DNA from: an uncultured Pirellulaceae bacterium
GTDB taxonomy: Bacteria > Planctomycetota > Planctomycetia > Pirellulales > Pirellulaceae
Assembly: GCA_937942355.1 (NCBI GenBank)
Contig: CALDEW010000162.1
Location: forward strand, 1-39,134
Direction: 5' to 3'
DNA: 39,134 nucleotides
The notes beneath the pieces were generated by a model, which worked only from the letters and a program-made list of their open reading frames with translations, was not told where the DNA came from and made no database searches. Of this stretch, positions 3,410 through 32,721 are shown one piece after another. Both the position numbers and the translations under genes were made by a program. How positions within the stretch are numbered: the first letter of the stretch is position 1; each line of letters begins with the position of its first letter.

Positions 3410-6400
3410 CTATAGATTTTTCAAACGCAATTTGTTCCGTACCTTTTTGGAGTCTTCCTTCAACCAACCGCCTTTTTGCCGTTTATTCAGTTTCCGAAGC
3501 TCAACAACGGCGCGTTGTCGACTGATACGGCAAGTCACATAGTCGCGGTAAATCAAGTCCGCTTTCTCGCGGCGACGAATCGAATCGTTCACGTCCAAGA
3601 ACTCTTCGGCCCATTGGTATGACCATTGGTGAAGGGTCTGCATGTGTTTCCGCAATTGAGAATTTTTTTCTGTTTCGCTGGGGGCATTGCTGAGTTTGGA
3701 TGACGAAGGTGAGGATTGATAAAGAGCGCTTTGAGCTTCGTCGACGCGCGTTTTTAACCCGTCCAGCTGCGATTGTAAGTCTGATCGTTGCAGCATTTTG
3801 TTGTTTCGACACTGCGCGATCGTTTCGAGCAATTTTTCGACGCAAAGTTGGCCGATCACCGGCATCGCCACCAACGCCGAAATCGCTTTCTCCGCCACCA
3901 CCAGTCGCCGGTCTTGGGTCGCCTCGCAGGCTTCGAAGCAAGTGTCCCAGGCTTGGAAACGATAAACAAAATCGAGCCCAGTCCCTTTAATGTTTTGCAT
4001 GCCCATCGTGCGTGCTAGGAAACCGGGTGGGATTTCTTGAATAATCTGACTGACGACCTCTTCGCCTGTGGCTTCTGAATCAGTAACGACGACCAGTTTG
4101 CGAGAGAACCAATGGCCAAGCATCGTTCGATACTTGTTGTCCAGAGGGTTGGCCATATTTTGGGGTGCGTCTTCGATCGCTTCGCGCAACTCACGGTATT
4201 CAGTGTAAGCACGGTTGAGCCATGATTGATGTTGGAGGATTGCCTCAACGTAGTCGCTGGAGATCGCAGCAGATTCCAACAATTCTTTCAGATTGCTATC
4301 GGGTGAAAGTGCACTGCCATCGATCGTTGGGGCAGGTTTCCCATGATCGCTGATTTCTTGGAGCACGCTGTTGATCATGTGTTCCAGCTGCGCGGTGATC
4401 TGCTTTTCCGCAACGGGTTGGCGGAAATTCCACGCCGTTTCCTTCAGTATCTCCAGCGCGTGCTCGGTGCTCCATGTGCCGTCATTCTGCTTCAGCGTCA
4501 TGGTCGCAGATTTTTCTTGCCATGCCTCGTCGATGAATTTTTTTAGACCGTTGAGGTTAGTGCCGATGAGAAAAAAGCGATCCGCGCTAATATCTTCGAC
4601 GATGATTTTCGCGAAGACGCGCGAACGCGGTACTCGATCGGCGCGATTGTTGATGACACCAACGATCCATGTTGTTGGCTCTGTCCAAGGGTCTTGTGTG
4701 TCGTACTTCAGACGTTTCCAGTTACCCATGCAGCCAAAACGCTCGTTCGCGGACATACCATTGGTAAATTCGATCCGCCGCGTTTTCACCTTCGATACCG
4801 GATGCGTTTTCAAAACCCCCAGATCAGGCACCAAATCGTCCGCCATTGCTTTGAGGGATTGCTCATGGGTCATTCCCAGATTCGCAGCCATCTGAGATAC
4901 CAGCGCGATATTGTCGGGATGCTCTTGATAGGGAAACCGTTCAAGAATGTCGTCGGTGATCAATCCCGACTGCAGCCAACCCACCGACTGCATCGTCGTT
5001 TGGTTTCGTTCACATTGGAGGGTGACGAAAGGCTTCATTTGCTCTTCGGTCGTCACCAGCAGGGATTTCTTTGGCACAAAACCGGAGATTGTTTCGGCGA
5101 CGTTGTAGCCGGCGGGACCTTGAATGTCTTCGTGATCGGGGTAGGTGTTGGTGATTGTGGCGATGTCGTCAAGCATCCATTGATGTTGCAGCACGTTGAC
5201 GTAGTCCGGGTTAAGAGCCATACACTCCCACAGGAAAACTGACGGTTTGAGTTTCGCGGCGATATTGATGAGGTTCCTCTGTTCCCAAATTGTGGCCTTG
5301 TCATAAGGACGAAAAAAAGGAATCTCCATGGGTTCGCCGAAGGCGTAGCTGTGAATGAACATCGCCTCGCATCCGGTGGTTTTGGAAACCAGTCCATGGC
5401 CCATGACACCCAGCAGGGCAGCTTTCAATCGTTCGGTTCCCGATTTTCCACGCGTGCCCCAGCCGCCAATGGAAAATGGAATCTTCTTGCGTGATTGGCG
5501 AAGCGAAAAATTCAACCACAAATGCCTTATCATGACCAACAACAGCGTTACGCACGCAAACAGGACCAATTCACCCAGCGAATTTTCGTAAGGTGAAGAG
5601 AAGTACTCGGTGAATCGTTTCAGGTGACCCACAAGTATTTCGTAGTGCGAGGCTCCCAATACATGCGTTGCTAAAGGTAGCAAGACCGGAGAAAGTTGAG
5701 TTACGTTCCCGAAGAATCTCGAGACGCTGGAATCCGTGATCGGCTGGGATTTCTCCTGCGCTTGCTTTGCGGGTGGTGCTTGTTCGGTTTCTGATTGATC
5801 GTATCGATGGGGTTTGAAAGAGATGTTGAAACCCAGTTCGATAATGGAACCAATGTAGGTATCCGCATCGGTCGTGCCGCCGTCCCAGTTGCGCAGGCTG
5901 GCGTACTTTGCGAAATCCCTGGTAAGTGAATAACAGGCGGCGATTCTTTGACCGATCTTAAGCGGTGGCGTGATGGACGTAACGCCTTGGCTGGAGACAA
6001 TTTTGATGGTGGCCGGTTTGAACCAGCTCATATTGAGCGCTGAAATCAGGTCGTCCACCAAAGGCAAAAATGGTCGCCAGGTACCATCGTTGGCAATCAT
6101 AAGGGGTTCGCCGGGAACTTTGGTTTCACTCAATTCTCCCAAAATTTGCGAGGGAGCTTTGAGTCGGGCCGTGCTGACGCGGCCGATGGTGTGTGGGTGT
6201 CCTTTTCGTTTGTCCGTTGCCGATCTTCGCATTTCGTGCACCAACCGCCACAGCCGTAGTCCAAAGACTGGACCGCGCGTGACGCGCATCCCCAACCATG
6301 TTCTCTGAACTTCGTAACCAAAATCATCTTGTGACAGGACGGCGAAGATGCGCGCCAGCGTTTCTTCGTCGACCCAATCAAACCAACGATTTGGATAGGT

Positions 6401-8079: not shown

Positions 8080-11000
8080 TCAGTCGGGATAGAAGTGATT
8101 GATTTTCGCAGCGCGTTCTTGTTTCAGAGAACGGAACAGAATCGAGTTTGGATTAAAGTCACGATAACCGCGACCGTCGTTGAAATAGTGATGGAAGAAA
8201 AAACCAACGCTCGTGCCGCCATCGAGAGCATGAGCAATAGAGAAATCAATCTCCGATCGGTGTCCGCCCCGATGCCAACGTTCGGCTTTTATGTCAACAC
8301 GGAATACGTTTTGAATCGCTGTTTCTATACGATCGTTATCGGAGAAAAACCCAGTCATTCGATAGTCAACGTGCAACTGAATAGGCCCAAACAGTTGATC
8401 CGATCCAATCTCAAAACCGGCATTGTCGGGAATTAGCTGATCTTCGTTACCGTTTAACCTCGGCTGGAAGTACACCCGCCGATCAAGGCAACACTGGTAG
8501 ACGAATCGATCCGAAAGTCGTAACCCGTAGCGATGGTTTCGTTTGTAGCGGGTGAAGATGTCTTGATCCAATTCACCCGGTGCGAAACCATTTACGTCCT
8601 CGCTGAGGAAGCGCCCGTGAAAACCCAGCCTCGGTTGATGGCTTAAGTTTGGACTGAAATGGTGCTTGCGAGAAATACTGCCCGACAGACCGGCGGTCCA
8701 TGGGAACGAATGAGAGTCAGGCAGCAGCGGAGTTCCGGCGTATTGCCCAAAGGCAAACACGTCCCATTGCGATTGCAACGGCCCCCATGAATCGGCTCCA
8801 CTGTCAGGCGCGTCATCTACTATACGGTTTGAGTTGAAGCGGCTGTGGCGGAATCCAAAGGTTGGACCTGAGCCCAACCGAGGCCGGAGGAGCCATTGGC
8901 TTTTGCGATATTCGTTTTTCCACTGGTCGTAGTAGTGATTGGTCAAACCCACTTCGAAGAATTGCCCCGGCTGCCCGCCATCAAGAAACTCTTCCAACGG
9001 ACGACGTGACCGGTAACCGAAGTGTAGTCCTGTCGTCCCGCTCTCTTGTAGCCCCAATTGCGACGAATCAACAACGTCCACGTCGACTTGGCTCGAATCG
9101 GGTGATCGCAGACCCAACAGATCCAAATCTTCAGCCGTGAAATTTTGTTCGACTTGATCAAAAACCTCCGCGACGGTCGCGTTGATCCAGTGACGATTCT
9201 TTTTGGATGGAGTGGGCGGAGCGCGATAGATCGGAGACGCTTCATTGTTAAGATTCATCTCATAAATTCGATATCGCGCGACTCTCCGGCCATCGCTGGG
9301 CACGAATTCGAACGTGCGAAGCTCCTCGGTGACGGGAATGAGCCTGGTGACGATCTCTTCTTCGATCAGTTCGTCGACGCGAATAACGTTGGGGCCGGAC
9401 ACACGGAAACGCAGCGGTTCTTCTTCGGTGGCAACGTGGTAAGAGCGCATCACCGAACCAAGGTTGGCCGAAACATCACTTTCGGGATCTACTGTGCCGT
9501 TGGCTAAGACTTCTTTAATATTCACATGGACATAGTGGTTGGCGTACGGTTGCGGCATCCACAGGGCGATTTGAGAATTCTCAGGCGAGATCTTTACGCG
9601 AAACGTCTCGACATCGTCATGGCCTTTTAAGGTTACTTGATCGTGTTTTCCGTTAATCTCCCACATCACCGTTGTTTCGGCGATGGGCAAGAATCCAACG
9701 CGCGGACGCCGCAAAGACACTTCTATCTCAGGCGAAAAAATGGAAGTCAGGTCGAGGATCAGAGGGTCGTCACCCAGGAGAGCCCGTTGCGGTATAAAAT
9801 TCCCCTGCAACGACTTGCGAATGCGAATGGGGGGATTGTCCGGACGCCAACGTTGGGCGCGCTCGGTGTAGACGCCGGCGCGCCGATCAAACTGCTCCAT
9901 CCGCTTCCATGTCGCGCCGGTTTTAACTTGGTTGAACAACCGCCGCAGGTCCTGGTGCTGAGGGTGTTCCTGAACAAGTTTCTGTAGCGACGCGATTTGG
10001 TTCATTCGCATCAAGTTGACTTCGGCGCCCTGTTGCTCGGTTGGGGCGATCGAATTGTCATAAGCGATTGCGATCGCCTGCTGGTAGACTTTATCTTGAT
10101 GCCGCAGCGCCAGCGGTGAGTGGACTGGCAAGATGCGGTTTTGCCAAACGGGCAGGTCACCAAGTTGCTCCGTCAGAAGCGGAGTAAGGTGCGACATATT
10201 GAGGTCGTCGCCGTTGAATTGAATGATCCCGTGCGCCAGCGAACGGCCGCCGACTTCTCGGGAGACCAACCGGACAAGATCTGGCGTTGTCTTTTCGACG
10301 CCGACGCGATTTTGGAACCCCGCCGGCAATTGAGGTTGGTGTGTGTTGCCAAGTCTTCCGACGATGACGGCGGCGAGCGTTGTTTCGTTGATCGGAGGTA
10401 GCACAGGCGAAAGGATCTCCGGTCGCATTGTCGAAACACGATGAATCATATCCACTTGGGCACTGCTTAATTGGATCTCGTTGAGGCCCTCGGGAAGATC
10501 AATCTCGGTAATGATTTTGTTCCCGGGAAACAGTTGGTCAGAGCGGCCTTCGATTTGTAGTGTCGTGGAAACGCTATTGTTGATGATCGGCACGCGCTGC
10601 AATTGGGAACCGTTGGTGATCTCCAGCACACCATTGACCGATTCGGGCGACTGCAAATCGTGTAGCGGACGCGATTCGATCGAGATTCGCGCGGGGCCTT
10701 GAATGGCGACCGTTGCAGGGGCAGCCTTCAATGAAGTAAAGAAGTCGTATCTTAGGTCTCTGTCAATTGAATAAATCGTTGCCATGCCGTAGCAGGATTT
10801 AACGACGGTCGGATCATACCGTTTGATTCTTGGTCCTGGTGTTTTATCCAAGTACCTTTGCCAGTCTTCAATCGCGGCCATGCGCGTCAAAAAATCAGGG
10901 CTGGTCAGACGAGAGTAAACATGGTCGCCGTATTTCCAATGCGTAATCCAAGTCTGCCCACGCTCGCCAGCGGCAGATAGCAGTTTGAAAGCTCGTTTGT

Positions 11001-13659
11001 ATTTGCCAAGTTGCAACAGTTTGATTCCGCCCCAAAAATTGCGCTGCTCCACGTCACTTACGCGTTTGAGTGATTGCTTGAAAGATCTCCACCACTGCAT
11101 TTGGAAACAGCAACGTAATCGCAACTCCTCGATGTCGTCGCCGGTAGCTTCCGGGGGAATCGCAAGAAACGCAAACCGGTAGCGGCCATTGGCGGCTAAC
11201 TGTTGGGCTAACTCAATCTCGTTGGCTTCGGTAGGGATTTCCGTAGCTCCGACGGCCAGAAAGTTCTCTCGATAGAAGTCTTCGTTGGGGCGGTCTGTTA
11301 TTTGATCGATCAGGGCCTGCAACAAACGCTTTTTCAGCGTCACATCTTTTGAGTGTAAGAGCCAACCTTGGCGCTCTTTTTGGGCCAAGAAATACTCGCC
11401 GGCGTGTTCCAATAACTCGGCGCGGGTCACAATGGCTTCGCTACGCTGCTTCGATTGGCTATGGTGTACGATAGCGGTCAGATGCTCCATCACCGCCGGC
11501 CAATTACCTGCGTTGGCAGCCGTTAAGGCGGCGTTGCGAGCCTGTTGGAGACGTTGGGTTGGCCATATTTCTTTGGGAGCCACCAGCTGATTGCCTGCCA
11601 CAATACCGCTGGTGAAATTTTCCACGTGGCTCTTGAGCAACCTTTGAACATCGAGCGAATCGTTGTCCAATTGGTCACCTGAGAACTGCTTCATCTCGGG
11701 CATCATACTGGCGTGTTTGGAGTGCTTGAGATACGCAGATTCCGAAAGTTCGGTGAAGGCAGCGACAAGAATCTGACAACCGATGTCAATCGCTTCGTTG
11801 GTACTGGATGTGGCGGTGACTTTCACTTCGCCGACATCACGGGGCAGAATCATCTCGGCGACGCCCGCCTTGATCATCGGCACCGTTTGATCGATTGACG
11901 CAAACGGACCGCCCCAAGGGCCACTGTCATAGCGGCTGTGGACCACCGAAAGACTGGCCAGCGCCGCTTCGGCGCGACCGGGAATAAATGCTTCGGTGGG
12001 TAGTGCCGAATCCGGTTCCAAGCTGAGCGTTACCGGAGGTCGGTTGTCGTACTGAACCTGAATGTTGACTGGCGAAGTAATTTGGTTGCGGTCGACAACC
12101 CATCGGATCAGCGTTCTACCCAGCGATTTTTGCGGTCGGAAACGCAGCCCACCACAGCCACAAGATTCATCACCGCCGGTTGCCAAGCGGTAGAGCGTAG
12201 TGGTCGGCAAGCGCCGGGCTGCTTCGATGATATGCTGTTCGCCGACGATGGTTTCGGTTTCGTTTTGCTTGGGCCGGCGGATGGAGCGCGATGGAAATCC
12301 AACGTGACGCGGGGCGGCGGCGGGGGTGACTTCGATGGGGGGAAAATCGCGAAAGTACGTGAAACGATTTTTGAGCCGGCCAACAAGTTCTGCAGAGGAA
12401 ACCTCATCGCCGAAGTCGCTTTCCCCGCGCCGACGGGAGGCGATTGCCCGCATCCACATGTAAGCGCGCAGGCCACCGTGCAGCACGCTGTTGTCGCGCG
12501 CAACCTCCAGTAGCCGAGGGTAATTAAGGTACGGATCCCACAGCGGATCGGTCGGGGCAGGGTTGATGACCGTGTCGCCTTGGAGGTATTGGTCCAGCGT
12601 TTTGCCGTCGTCTATCCACTCCTGTTCCAGCCATGAATCTTCGTCGGTCAACCGTTTCTCCATAGCGGGAAAATTAAAGCGGCAATTGGTCAACGGGTTG
12701 CAAAGATTCAGTCCGACTGCGTTGGCGCGCACGTATCCCGGGTGAGAGAGTTCGATTTCAACCGACTCGCAATCGTTTTCAATGTCCAGGTACTCGAATT
12801 CGCGGCCGCCGATGAGTCTTTCAACCCCGCCCACAAATTCGCGGTGCATGCGCTGCGGCAGCGTGTCGAAAAGCAGTGTTTTGTGGTACACACCATCAAT
12901 GAAAATCTTGACCCAATAAAACTGGTGTCGGCTCGCGTCGAGATCGTACTTCAGCCGCGTCTCCAAACGCAATCGCGTGCTTCCATCAACCTCCAAGGGG
13001 TAACGGCGACCTGATTTTAAAGGAGTGTAGTACAGTGGCTTCCTGCCTCGGTCGTCGCTGATCTGAACACGTTTATCATCGCACGCGATTTCACATTGAT
13101 AGTAATCCAGCGAGCGGTGCTGATAACGGGCTGAAGTGAATACGGCAACCGTCATCGCGCAGGGCGAATTTGGGGAACAGAGTACACGTCCAATCGAAAT
13201 GCGCGGATCGTCAGGAGCACCGACCATTGAGGTGGCGTCGGTGGAAATTGCCGGTTTGAGTTTGCGGAAGAGCCCCGTTCCGTCGGAGGTCCACAGCTGC
13301 AACATGTCGTCAGCAATGGTTTCAGGTCCGCAACTGAGGACGCGAATGTATTCATTTTCGAGGACTTGAAAGTCCACCGATTCGCCCGGGGAAAGGTCAA
13401 TGGTGCACAGCTTGTAGGCGCGGTTGAACCTCGGGGCCGGACCCGCAATGTGTTGCAGGCCATCGGTCAAGTTCTCCCACTTCAGCGGAGCGCGCTGAGG
13501 AAGTCGAACTTCTTTCTTGCTGTCGAGCGTCGTTTCTGCACGCAGTTGGCCCGCGATCAACAACAAAATAACAAACAGAAATACCCTGATTAGCGATGGC
13601 AGGCGCGCAGAATCCCAACCTTTGATTAAGCATCGATGGCGTGCGTAATTTGGGATCAT
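8080..13659 (-). CDS. Very large secreted protein with TPR-like middle region and candidate C-terminal outer-membrane beta-barrel; candidate polymer exporter
   Basis: 1859 aa; signal peptide (SLIRVFLFVILLLIAGQLRAE); TPR-like 'QQARNAALTAANAGNWPAVMEHLTAIVHHSQSKQRSEAIVTRAELLEHAGEYFLAQ'; last ~300 aa consists of alternating-pattern strands with aromatic residues ('PTFGFRHSRFNS', 'WDVFAFGQYAGTPL', 'RYGLRLSDRFVYQCCLDRRVYFQPRLN', 'IDFSIAHALDGGTSVGFFFHHYF'). Confidence 0.65.
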   Translation of the reverse strand: MIPNYARHRCLIKGWDSARLPSLIRVFLFVILLLIAGQLRAETTLDSKKEVRLPQRAPLKWENLTDGLQHIAGPAPRFNRAYKLCTIDLSPGESVDFQVLENEYIRVLSCGPETIADDMLQLWTSDGTGLFRKLKPAISTDATSMVGAPDDPRISIGRVLCSPNSPCAMTVAVFTSARYQHRSLDYYQCEIACDDKRVQISDDRGRKPLYYTPLKSGRRYPLEVDGSTRLRLETRLKYDLDASRHQFYWVKIFIDGVYHKTLLFDTLPQRMHREFVGGVERLIGGREFEYLDIENDCESVEIELSHPGYVRANAVGLNLCNPLTNCRFNFPAMEKRLTDEDSWLEQEWIDDGKTLDQYLQGDTVINPAPTDPLWDPYLNYPRLLEVARDNSVLHGGLRAYMWMRAIASRRRGESDFGDEVSSAELVGRLKNRFTYFRDFPPIEVTPAAAPRHVGFPSRSIRRPKQNETETIVGEQHIIEAARRLPTTTLYRLATGGDESCGCGGLRFRPQKSLGRTLIRWVVDRNQITSPVNIQVQYDNRPPVTLSLEPDSALPTEAFIPGRAEAALASLSVVHSRYDSGPWGGPFASIDQTVPMIKAGVAEMILPRDVGEVKVTATSSTNEAIDIGCQILVAAFTELSESAYLKHSKHASMMPEMKQFSGDQLDNDSLDVQRLLKSHVENFTSGIVAGNQLVAPKEIWPTQRLQQARNAALTAANAGNWPAVMEHLTAIVHHSQSKQRSEAIVTRAELLEHAGEYFLAQKERQGWLLHSKDVTLKKRLLQALIDQITDRPNEDFYRENFLAVGATEIPTEANEIELAQQLAANGRYRFAFLAIPPEATGDDIEELRLRCCFQMQWWRSFKQSLKRVSDVEQRNFWGGIKLLQLGKYKRAFKLLSAAGERGQTWITHWKYGDHVYSRLTSPDFLTRMAAIEDWQRYLDKTPGPRIKRYDPTVVKSCYGMATIYSIDRDLRYDFFTSLKAAPATVAIQGPARISIESRPLHDLQSPESVNGVLEITNGSQLQRVPIINNSVSTTLQIEGRSDQLFPGNKIITEIDLPEGLNEIQLSSAQVDMIHRVSTMRPEILSPVLPPINETTLAAVIVGRLGNTHQPQLPAGFQNRVGVEKTTPDLVRLVSREVGGRSLAHGIIQFNGDDLNMSHLTPLLTEQLGDLPVWQNRILPVHSPLALRHQDKVYQQAIAIAYDNSIAPTEQQGAEVNLMRMNQIASLQKLVQEHPQHQDLRRLFNQVKTGATWKRMEQFDRRAGVYTERAQRWRPDNPPIRIRKSLQGNFIPQRALLGDDPLILDLTSIFSPEIEVSLRRPRVGFLPIAETTVMWEINGKHDQVTLKGHDDVETFRVKISPENSQIALWMPQPYANHYVHVNIKEVLANGTVDPESDVSANLGSVMRSYHVATEEEPLRFRVSGPNVIRVDELIEEEIVTRLIPVTEELRTFEFVPSDGRRVARYRIYEMNLNNEASPIYRAPPTPSKKNRHWINATVAEVFDQVEQNFTAEDLDLLGLRSPDSSQVDVDVVDSSQLGLQESGTTGLHFGYRSRRPLEEFLDGGQPGQFFEVGLTNHYYDQWKNEYRKSQWLLRPRLGSGPTFGFRHSRFNSNRIVDDAPDSGADSWGPLQSQWDVFAFGQYAGTPLLPDSHSFPWTAGLSGSISRKHHFSPNLSHQPRLGFHGRFLSEDVNGFAPGELDQDIFTRYKRNHRYGLRLSDRFVYQCCLDRRVYFQPRLNGNEDQLIPDNAGFEIGSDQLFGPIQLHVDYRMTGFFSDNDRIETAIQNVFRVDIKAERWHRGGHRSEIDFSIAHALDGGTSVGFFFHHYFNDGRGYRDFNPNSILFRSLKQERAAKINHFYPD

Positions 13660-27102: not shown

Positions 27103-28893
27103 TTAATCCGATGAGTTATTGCCCTGATCGACCAGGCCTACCGAATATGCGTTCCCTTGATACTCATTCCTTCTCAGGTAGTTTCCATCGGTACTCGGCG
27201 AAAAGTAGGCGCCGATGCCGCTGTTGAATGAAACCGTATTATCCGCAAGAAAATTGTCATCGGAGTTGTTGAAAACCACTCCGACATCACCGTTGCGCTC
27301 GATCAGGTTGCGAGAGAAAAATGAATCATCAACTCCGTAAGCCAGTAAACCGAAGCTGGAATTTCCGTCAGCCGTATTGTTTGAAAATCCACAGCCCTGA
27401 CTGTTTACTAAGATGTAACCTTTTCCATTGTTGTTTGCACTGCGGTTGTTCTCGAATCCTGAATTGGAACCAATAAAGAACAACCCGGCTCCTGCGCGGT
27501 TATTGGTCGCTTCGCTGTTGCCGACAAACCCGTTGTCAGAGAAGATTTCGAATCCGGCCCCGCCATTGTTCTGTGAACGGCAGTTGAAAATGTAGAACTG
27601 GTCAACCCGATTTAAGAAAACTCCACGACCTTCATTGTTGATGATGTTGGTGTTGACGATGGAAATATCTTGGGCATCCAGCATTCTGATCGCGTCGCCA
27701 AAGTTGTCCCGAAATTCGCAATTATAAATTCTCAATCGACTGGTTCGCGAAAGCGCTTCTACACCGGTGATTCCTCTGGCTATTTCCAAATTTATGATAC
27801 GGACGTTGTCTCCGTTGACTCGGATGACGGGACGATTCCCTATGGCGGCCATCAGTCGCGAGTTGCTGCGACCCCTGATTGTTAGCGGTTTGTCGATGAC
27901 GAGGTTCGCGTACCAATCCGCAGATCCCAGCAAGATCGTATCGCCAGCATTGGCTGCCGCAACAGCCGCGTTGGGCGATGGATATTGCTCGGGGACTAAT
28001 CTTTGGCTCGGAACGTAGACCTTGAAATCGTCAAAGAAAATGACTTCGTCTTTGCTGTTTTGCCAGCTCGAACCACCTCCGAAAAAGGTACTGAAGAACA
28101 GGCGGTCGATTTTCAAATTGGCGGTGTTGCGAAATTGAATATTGTTCTGGTCCAACACGAGTCGGCCATCGAGCCAGATTTGAAGGATACCATCTCGGAC
28201 GCCAGGCGTGTTCATCCGTACGCGCTGTCGAAGCGTGTACCAAACGTCTGATTCTAAACGCGACTCAGATCCGTTCGCTTCTTCCCAAAATACTTCATCT
28301 TCCTGACGACCGTCCTGAGCAAATCCTGAGTGGAGGTGCTTGGCATAGGAAATAGCTTGACTTACTCGTTGTTGGGGCCGGCCCGATTGGCCTTGAAAAC
28401 GGGTACGCCACATGAATCGTCCAGACCAGCCACGGACACCGTCCGCCGGAGCGCTACCGCTGGGGGCTGATCCGCCAGCAAGGCCGGGAAGCTTTCCGCC
28501 GCGCACAAAATCAAAGCCGGGTCCAAATTTAACTCGATAGGTTAAAAAAGCTTCCTCTACCCCATCGAACTCGGCGATCCATTGAGCCCCTCCGAGCCTA
28601 GGCCCAAAACTGCCGGAGGGATACTCGACCCGAAGTGAGGAACCGCGTCCGCCGAAGGCCTGGTTTCCGGAGACCATGCGAGTTCGACCTTCATCGACGC
28701 CGTTAGAGAATCGGAGTTCGCCGAAGTCTGCTTCGATTTGGTCCTCAGAGTAAGCACCTGTGCGGTTGTCGAAGTTCACTTCCAATATGGTCTGGCCGTT
28801 TGCAGAAGCGACGCACAACGAGGCTAAAACAATGGTGGGAACAACAAGAAAACAACGAAGGCTGATGAAGCCCAAAGGTGAGTCAGAGGACAT
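27103..28893 (-). CDS. Secreted polysaccharide-lyase-like domain plus right-handed parallel beta-helix (NosD-like) protein
   Basis: Signal peptide; 'AFLTYRVKFGPGFDFVRGGKLPGLAGG ... GWSGRFMWR' resembles PL14/alginate-lyase-like domains; C-terminal repeats 'GFVGNSEATNNRAGAGLFFIGSNSGFENNRSANNNGKGYILVNSQGCGFSNNTADGN'. Confidence 0.75.
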   Translation of the reverse strand: MSSDSPLGFISLRCFLVVPTIVLASLCVASANGQTILEVNFDNRTGAYSEDQIEADFGELRFSNGVDEGRTRMVSGNQAFGGRGSSLRVEYPSGSFGPRLGGAQWIAEFDGVEEAFLTYRVKFGPGFDFVRGGKLPGLAGGSAPSGSAPADGVRGWSGRFMWRTRFQGQSGRPQQRVSQAISYAKHLHSGFAQDGRQEDEVFWEEANGSESRLESDVWYTLRQRVRMNTPGVRDGILQIWLDGRLVLDQNNIQFRNTANLKIDRLFFSTFFGGGSSWQNSKDEVIFFDDFKVYVPSQRLVPEQYPSPNAAVAAANAGDTILLGSADWYANLVIDKPLTIRGRSNSRLMAAIGNRPVIRVNGDNVRIINLEIARGITGVEALSRTSRLRIYNCEFRDNFGDAIRMLDAQDISIVNTNIINNEGRGVFLNRVDQFYIFNCRSQNNGGAGFEIFSDNGFVGNSEATNNRAGAGLFFIGSNSGFENNRSANNNGKGYILVNSQGCGFSNNTADGNSSFGLLAYGVDDSFFSRNLIERNGDVGVVFNNSDDNFLADNTVSFNSGIGAYFSPSTDGNYLRRNEYQGNAYSVGLVDQGNNSSD

Positions 28894-31212: not shown

Positions 31213-32721
31213 TCAATTGTTCGTGAGTGCCATAATGAAGGGGCCGATATCCAAGAAGGTGACGATATCGTCTTGGTTGACATCCGCCTCGATCTGATAG
31301 GTCACCGAAGTTAGCAGCGCGATAAACGGTGCGATATCGAGAAAGTTCACGACTCCATTTTGGTCGACGTCCCCCAGTAAAACGGGGGACACGATTGCGA
31401 AATTAACATCGTCCACATGGACTGCGCCTCCGGCGTCGTTTTGCTGCCCGAAGACAAGCACGCCCCGGGCCTCGACCGCGCCTGGAGGGGCAACCGCGCT
31501 GAGCGTGCGTGTTATCCATACATCGTTGGCACTGCTCCCGTTGACCAGGCTGATTGAATCTGAGCCGAGGTATTGGGGCGAACCGAATTCACCATGCTGC
31601 TCACTGAAGTAATCGAACTTCAGATCGACGAAGTTGCCAGACTCGGCGATAGAGTCATTTGAGGCAATAAGAGCGCTCGCGGTGGCCGTCAGTTCTTGGC
31701 CGGGAGTCACGGTCAGTCCTTGAGTAACGCCCGAGAAATTCGTTTCACCATTAAATTGTCCATACAGCTTGAGGGATTCCGAACCGGTTCTGACTTGTTC
31801 GTTTCCGCTACTGACGTTGTTGATCGCATCGCCAAACTTTGTCCAAGCGCCTAACGAACCTCCGTTGTCCTCGAAGCCTCCGTTCTCAAACGTCAGCGTG
31901 GTGCCGCCGGCCGATTTGGTATAGGCATGAACGTAGTCGATCTCAAATACCTGCGGCCATACGGTTGTGTTATCAGGGTTGTCCAAGAAAAGCCCACCGA
32001 CAGCCGTATTGAGAATCAGCCGCATCGCACCGGCTTCGGTAGAAATAAAGTTCTCAACGTTCTGGTCACGAATAGTCCAGTAGTGAACATCGTCGACGTA
32101 GAATCGCAGCTGATCGGAATCCCACTCGACGGAGTATGTGTGGAAGCCGTCATGGTAGTTTTGAAGGACGCTGTTGTGGACTGAAGTTTGTTCTCTGGCG
32201 ACGAACTCATGTCGAAACACTCCGGCTCCGTTTTCGCCATAGTGAAATGCCGAGCTGGTGGTGTTGGGTTCGTTGCCGCGGTTCTCCATGATGTCAATTT
32301 CACCTGCGCTGGGCCAAGGCATCGTATTGACATCTGACAACAGCCAAATGGCCGGCCACATGCCGGTCGATGCGGGAAGCTTCGCTCGGATGTCCCAGCG
32401 CCCTTCTTTTTGGATCGCGGTGCTCTGCACCAAACCGCTACGATATGGTAAGCCGCGCGAGGGAATGTTCTCAGAAAGAATCCGAAGGCTGCCGCCGGAC
32501 ACACTGACTTGGGATGGTAAATAATCTTGCAAAGATAAATTGGTGGTTTGGTTCGTGTTGGAAACAGTCCACAACGAGGTATCTAAGCTATTGCCATCAA
32601 ACTCGTCATACCAAGCAACGTCATAGCCTGATCGTGCTGGAGGTTGGGCCACTGCAAGGTTGCTGGCCACCAACACTGAGCAGCTCAACACTGCGAAGAA
32701 AACGGATGCAAATCGAGTCAT
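31213..32721 (-). CDS. Secreted glycoside hydrolase family 16 enzyme with C-terminal dockerin-like repeats
   Basis: Signal peptide; GH16 motif 'WPSAGEIDIMENRG'; 'WAIWLLSD'-type region; C-terminal 'LLGDVDQNGVVNFLDIAPFIALL...EADVNQDDIVTFLDIGPFIMAL' paired Ca-binding dockerin-like repeats. Confidence 0.9.
   Translation of the reverse strand: MTRFASVFFAVLSCSVLVASNLAVAQPPARSGYDVAWYDEFDGNSLDTSLWTVSNTNQTTNLSLQDYLPSQVSVSGGSLRILSENIPSRGLPYRSGLVQSTAIQKEGRWDIRAKLPASTGMWPAIWLLSDVNTMPWPSAGEIDIMENRGNEPNTTSSAFHYGENGAGVFRHEFVAREQTSVHNSVLQNYHDGFHTYSVEWDSDQLRFYVDDVHYWTIRDQNVENFISTEAGAMRLILNTAVGGLFLDNPDNTTVWPQVFEIDYVHAYTKSAGGTTLTFENGGFEDNGGSLGAWTKFGDAINNVSSGNEQVRTGSESLKLYGQFNGETNFSGVTQGLTVTPGQELTATASALIASNDSIAESGNFVDLKFDYFSEQHGEFGSPQYLGSDSISLVNGSSANDVWITRTLSAVAPPGAVEARGVLVFGQQNDAGGAVHVDDVNFAIVSPVLLGDVDQNGVVNFLDIAPFIALLTSVTYQIEADVNQDDIVTFLDIGPFIMALTNN

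Follow-up and report, generated by a model that had tools for sequence, protein, structure and literature searches.

A PgsB-linked β-barrel protein of Planctomycetota as a candidate outer-membrane exporter of an amino-acid polymer

Introduction

The machinery that makes polyglutamate is known from the capsules of Bacillus. A genome survey of capsule systems took CapB and CapC to define poly-γ-glutamate (PGA) systems, counted CapA and CapE as accessories, reported such systems as abundant in Planctomycetes, and held that diderms require at least one more protein for PGA to cross the outer membrane (PMC5542703). The role of capBCA in Francisella is still unclear (PMC4688374), and passages of two reports on Cloacimonadota describe CapBC(A) without an outer-membrane exporter (PMC13082233, PMC8542988). 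The literature searched, with most subscription journals lying outside it, did not describe any outer-membrane protein that exports poly-γ-glutamate.

The closest described exporters carry polysaccharides. Alginate export relies on two separate proteins, the TPR protein AlgK and AlgE, an arginine-rich barrel of 18 strands for a polyanion. The cellulose exporter BcsC joins TPRs to a C-terminal barrel and is encoded in the synthase operon. The poly-beta-1,6-N-acetylglucosamine exporter PgaA is a large signal-peptide protein in which a periplasmic TPR solenoid precedes a C-terminal outer-membrane barrel, and its gene neighbours that of the synthase. Polymer and a processing enzyme are both bound by the TPR part, which may direct the polymer towards the pore (PMC9384988).

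Here we analyse P0001, a protein encoded in a stretch of 39,134 nucleotides (the window) from an uncultured Pirellulaceae bacterium. An initial annotation had proposed it as an outer-membrane exporter for a polyamino-acid polymer. The barrel fold and the linkage to PgsB described below support that idea, and we consider it rather likely that P0001 serves a trans-envelope synthase of the poly-gamma-glutamate type as its outer-membrane part, with the polymer leaving through the barrel.

Results

P0001 is a conserved, predicted secreted protein

The P0001 reading frame runs for 1859 codons without interruption on the minus strand (13659→8080), and the plus strand across 8080-13659 contains many stops. 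The frame is kept as a protein of 1700-2100 aa in other genomes, at identities of 87, 51, 50, 37, 25 and 24%, and homologues are also present in more distant planctomycetes; this conservation excludes a chance ORF. Sequence searches of Pfam, NCBIfam and the PDB gave no match to P0001, and no sequence similarity to known exporters was found. From sequence, alignment, AlphaFold2 (AF2) models and Foldseek, we propose an exporter composed of a signal peptide, a β-domain, a TPR-like solenoid and an outer-membrane β-barrel.

The signal peptide anticipated for this protein was borne out by an N-terminal hydrophobic stretch, the only one in P0001, which is followed by the signal-peptide-typical LRA and then E. 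It spans residues ~1-41 (13537..13659, minus strand; VFLFVILLLIAGQLRA before E, with the cleavage site placed by eye). The Cys-rich ESCGCGG patch that had been pointed out as unusual is present (C500/C502, window 12154-12162), but its CxC is conserved within the genus only. It thus lies outside the conserved core of P0001, and we rejected it as a mark of metal binding or of a disulfide.

The C-terminal domain is modelled as a 14-stranded outer-membrane-type barrel

Residues 1500-1859 were modelled with AF2 from an alignment of 13 homologues. Within the last ~320 residues, the model contains 14 antiparallel amphipathic strands of 11-16 residues, with a pLDDT of 75.7 (the disordered first ~38 residues counted in) and a pTM of 0.77. 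All 50 PDB matches listed by Foldseek were outer-membrane barrels or porin-sized engineered versions of them (E 1e-8 to 3e-6), including OmpG, OmpF, CymA and FadL. The best TM score among the matches listed was that of OmpG, with 14 strands (0.63-0.70 by target length, rmsd ~5 Å). As modelled, the C-terminal domain (residues 1542-1826; 8182..9036, minus strand) is a 14-stranded outer-membrane-type barrel, in which the β-strands that had been read from the sequence find their place. A C-terminal fold other than a barrel, which had been named as the outcome that would refute the proposal, did not arise. The hydrophobic/polar alternation of the strands was 1.11 versus 0.52±0.10 in shuffled sequences, a value reached by 0 of 5000 shuffles. 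No Pfam match to the barrel was obtained in eight homologues at E<=5, nor any PDB match by sequence.

The putative pore face, whose residues were told from outward ones by hydrophobicity and not by coordinates, carries a net charge of +1 to +10 in 13/13 homologues. R1592 is invariant on this face across the 13 homologues, and R1683 and R1801 are nearly so. A positive face, so assigned, fits a polyanionic cargo.

The protein ends in HFYPD rather than in the usual terminal aromatic residue, which had made the initial barrel call tentative. This doubt is resolved by the last strand, which terminates at the aromatic F1826 (GTSVGFFFHHYF) and is followed by a conserved tail of ~33 residues (1827-1859; 8080..8181, minus strand). 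R, D, P and F positions of the tail are conserved across families in the alignment, and it is partly helical in the AF2 model.

A TPR-like solenoid lies between β-domains

The model of residues 330-1499, which is less certain than that of the barrel (mean pLDDT 66.5, pTM 0.62), places a solenoid of about 17 helices in hairpins at residues ~640-938 (10846..11742, minus strand), where the local pLDDT is mostly 75-90. Several β-domains of no assigned fold flank it on both sides. Foldseek returned partial matches of the middle region to consensus TPR arrays and to MamA (E 0.01-0.02), and Pfam TPR matches were marginal and confined to single homologues (E 0.001-0.03; TPR_16 at E 0.0014 in one). The region can therefore be called TPR-like from its modelled shape, with weak sequence support. 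The helices noted in the initial annotation are thus recovered as a modelled helical-hairpin solenoid, but in mid-protein between β-domains and with little TPR signature. Cry proteins headed the Foldseek list for the 1170-residue middle model, a result without meaning at TM 0.06-0.09 and an rmsd of ~30 Å over many domains; BcsB matches in the same list were rejected at TM ~0.1.

P0001 adjoins a long PgsB in an operon with a PgsC fusion

The gene of a long PgsB/CapB protein (P0002, 1550 aa; 8062→3410, TIGR04012) begins 17 bp downstream of P0001, in accord with the CapB-like neighbour first annotated there. P0002 consists of an N-terminal HEAT-like extension, a membrane segment and a ligase domain (residues 839-1203; 4454-5548, minus strand), the last identified by TIGR04012 and aligned motifs. 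Its score against TIGR04012 (E 1.5e-63, 214.8 bits) is just under the NCBI equivalog cut-off of 222.7. The ligase motifs GTRGKS, K-TTG/K-TGC, ECMAL-P, DH-D--GP, N--AN and N-R-DR also occur in five canonical PgsB proteins, and with its catalytic motifs intact the domain is, judged by sequence, probably an active ligase. The ~800 extra N-terminal residues of the long PgsB contain helices of weakly HEAT-like character, and two separate ORFs correspond to this extension and the ligase part in G493 and G581.

Four genes lie upstream on the same strand. P0006 (20936→17607, 1109 aa) is a PgsC/CapC fusion in which two CapC stretches precede a P0008-like C-terminal region. It matched PF14102 in two stretches (E 1.4e-30, 106.6 bits versus a gathering score of 27), and its TIGR04011 score (E 5e-17, 62.3 bits) is well under the equivalog cut-off of 96.45. 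Together with the PgsB score and motifs, the PF14102 match upholds the earlier CapB/CapC call on the neighbours. By motif, P0006 appears to hold two copies of the P0008-like domain, and long PgsC proteins of its type were found across the phylum.

P0008 (14973→13999) is a secreted putative hydrolase with invariant H154, D158, H217-G218 and E295, residues that look like those of a metal hydrolase. It is homologous to the P0006 region C-terminal of the CapC domains (hhalign E 3e-9), and it had no Pfam match, the gamma-PGA hydrolase family PF05908 included. Against phage γ-PGA hydrolases in a purpose-built alignment, two histidine motifs fell in register at a non-significant E of 0.066 (hhalign), and a claim of kinship was dropped for that value despite the aligned motifs. 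Elsewhere in the genome, a secreted 386-aa homologue with a PEP-CTERM-like tail (L118:3803-4963, G000 contig 502) is related to P0008 at E 1e-26 and to the PgsC-fused region at E 1e-21, and belongs to no Pfam family. On these sequence comparisons, the three constitute an undescribed hydrolase-like family in which the 386-aa protein bridges the other two.

P0005 (17610→15028, 860 aa) is an operon-conserved, membrane-anchored protein of no known family, with one N-terminal TM segment and a probably β-rich periplasmic part; profile comparison found no kinship to P0001. P0007 (23707→20945), a CHASE2 membrane protein (PF05226, E 2.7e-10), is the first gene of the operon, a position conserved across loci. 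Its C-terminal half resembles, by eye, a degenerate histidine kinase ATPase domain, with no kinase match in Pfam, and it is possibly a pseudokinase regulator. The ORF P0004 (13857-14324) overlaps P0008, showed no conservation and was taken as spurious. Near the operon, the window also encodes a PL14-type lyase with a right-handed β-helix and a GH16 protein with a dockerin (27103-28893 and 31213-32721), possibly unrelated polysaccharide degradation genes.

Searches of the organism's own genome (83% complete) gave no CapA/PgsA (PF09587) and no TIGR04332 match. The TIGR04332 search had no positive control among 14 named genomes, but it picks up the canonical G002 locus, the only place among the tested relatives where TIGR04332 occurred. 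CapA was not found in five of six relatives tested.

Distribution of P0001 follows the long PgsB

Homologues of P0001 are spread over at least eight planctomycete families, the sampling for the barrel family having covered Planctomycetota. Among 148 related genomes, eight (the own genome included) carry one, and exactly the same eight carry the divergent long PgsB; many of the other relatives among the 148 have a canonical PgsB of ~400 aa and no P0001 homologue. Because five of the eight genomes belong to one genus, the co-occurrence figure of 1/C(148,8) is unusable as a p-value. A profile of seven homologues extended the family to further classes of the phylum (G508, G518, G568, G748 and, weakly, G493). 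An order-level search with the barrel profile returned only G000 and G082, both already found, and one scan of the genome collection for related loci returned a single close relative. The long PgsC, or a large part of it, was present in 13 further genomes; where the contig sufficed (G481, G581), a giant P0001 homologue lay in the same gene cluster.

The P0001 homologue adjoins PgsB in 13/13 loci where both were seen (G000, G012, G002, G001, G082, G006, G079, G061, G508, G518, G568, G493 and G581). Such adjacency and the exact co-occurrence tie P0001 to CapB far more firmly than a single genome could. The order CHASE2 protein, PgsC fusion, P0005, P0008, barrel protein, long PgsB is kept in G012, G002, G001, G079 and G568, and in G061 as far as the contig reaches. 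The gene set is split into two modules in G082 and G493, where the barrel protein and PgsB remain together, and the two modules are divergent in G508. No other conserved outer-membrane candidate was found in the operon across the compared loci. At six canonical pgsBC loci, one of them in G002, no P0001 homologue was found as a neighbour; the third gene was TIGR04332 in 3/3 canonical loci tested.

G002 (L021/L022 and L086), of the same genus, carries both the long six-gene system and a canonical pgsB-pgsC-TIGR04332 locus, which suggests different products or roles. G481 (L090, contig 79) carries the long system and also a true gamma-PGA hydrolase (PF05908, E 4e-57). It is the sole carrier of PF05908 among the 101 genomes sampled from the phylum, and the pairing hints at polyglutamate as the product in this lineage.

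Discussion

P0001 may be said to work like PgaA and BcsC, and it is not a member of either family by sequence or strand number. The parallel first drawn with these exporters holds for a barrel joined to a part that is TPR-like in its modelled shape and encoded with the synthase, and for PgaA also for the signal peptide and the order of domains; it does not extend to kinship. P0001 has neither a Pfam barrel-family match at E<=5 nor the BcsC C-terminal domain, 14 strands are predicted against 16 in PgaA and in BcsC, and its solenoid is flanked on both sides by extra β-domains. Its pore face is positive and its partner is an amide ligase, whereas that of PgaA is a glycosyltransferase; the class of polymer likewise differs from that of BcsC. 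An arginine-rich barrel for a polyanion recalls AlgK/AlgE, although P0001 unites TPR-like part and barrel in one polypeptide with 14 strands. OmpG, the monomeric E. coli porin, is the closest solved structure among the matches listed and has an equal number of strands, but at 7-8% identity, and it is a bare porin of ~280 residues that has neither periplasmic domains nor a synthase as partner.

The synthase differs from its canonical counterparts as well. PgsB ligase and CapC membrane domains are common to the long system and to canonical pgsBC(A/E) or capBCA loci, the planctomycete pgsB-pgsC-TIGR04332 loci included. In the long system, however, PgsB has 1390-1550 aa instead of ~400, PgsC exceeds 1000 aa (~150 in canonical loci) and holds two CapC stretches, and four extra conserved genes, including that of the barrel protein, are present with no CapA nearby.

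The computed results (barrel fold, helical solenoid, operon, co-occurrence, intact ligase motifs and positive pore face) can be assembled into a working model, in which we infer what the polymer is, which way it travels and what each accessory protein does. At the inner membrane, the chain would be built by the Mur-ligase-like amide ligase domain of PgsB together with the membrane protein that carries two CapC stretches. P0005 and the PgsC-fused domains would guide the chain, and the hydrolase-like P0008 would trim it or control its quality. In the periplasm, the β-domains and TPR-like solenoid of P0001 would take up the chain and feed it into the arginine-lined barrel and out of the cell. The CHASE2 protein would probably regulate the system.

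Other readings of the same locus were weighed. With the long PgsB and the fused PgsC diverged from their Bacillus counterparts, the same export machine might carry a different amide-linked cargo, another amino acid or a peptide on another scaffold. The equivalog cut-offs, just missed by PgsB and missed by far by PgsC, mean that the polymer may not be poly-gamma-glutamate, and the large unique extensions of both proteins, the two systems of G002, as if for two products, and the non-significant link of P0008 to PGA hydrolases point the same way. Since the ligase motifs are shared with canonical PgsB and the pore face is positive, as expected of a polyglutamate conduit, we regard a different cargo as unlikely, with an appreciable chance left to it.

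It is improbable that the barrel protein anchors or assembles a polymer layer at the outer membrane, or sets its length, without conducting the chain. About 1500 residues of β-rich and helical domains before the barrel and a conserved tail beyond its last strand would suit such a role; yet 14 strands around an arginine-rich lumen exceed what an anchor needs, and the operon conserves no further outer-membrane candidate. A very small chance is left for an uptake porin in a system that scavenges or recycles extracellular polyglutamate through a P0008-type hydrolase. The known 14-strand barrels OmpG, CymA and FadL, the closest solved ones among the matches listed, are uptake or diffusion channels, and none of the three is known to export a polymer; the operon encodes a secreted hydrolase-like protein, of which the genome holds another copy at a separate site. 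Against uptake, the neighbouring gene is always a ligase-type synthase and never a peptidase or transporter, and no TonB-type receptor domain was found.

P0001 is probably the exit gate that such systems have so far lacked, through which bacteria with two membranes can export an amino-acid polymer. With somewhat less assurance, we favour placing it as a one-protein outer-membrane exporter of a poly-amino acid within a six-component, envelope-spanning amide-ligase secretion machine that extends across Planctomycetota, a non-sugar counterpart of PgaA and BcsC.

CapB/CapC genes occur in many diderms, Planctomycetes among them, and a conserved barrel protein tied to PgsB would make the question of the polymer's exit directly testable. 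The set of long PgsB, long PgsC and barrel protein would offer a genetic marker for finding producers. If the proposal is true, the TPR-barrel principle of export would extend from sugars to amino-acid polymers, and it would provide one answer to how CapBC polymers get out of diderm cells.
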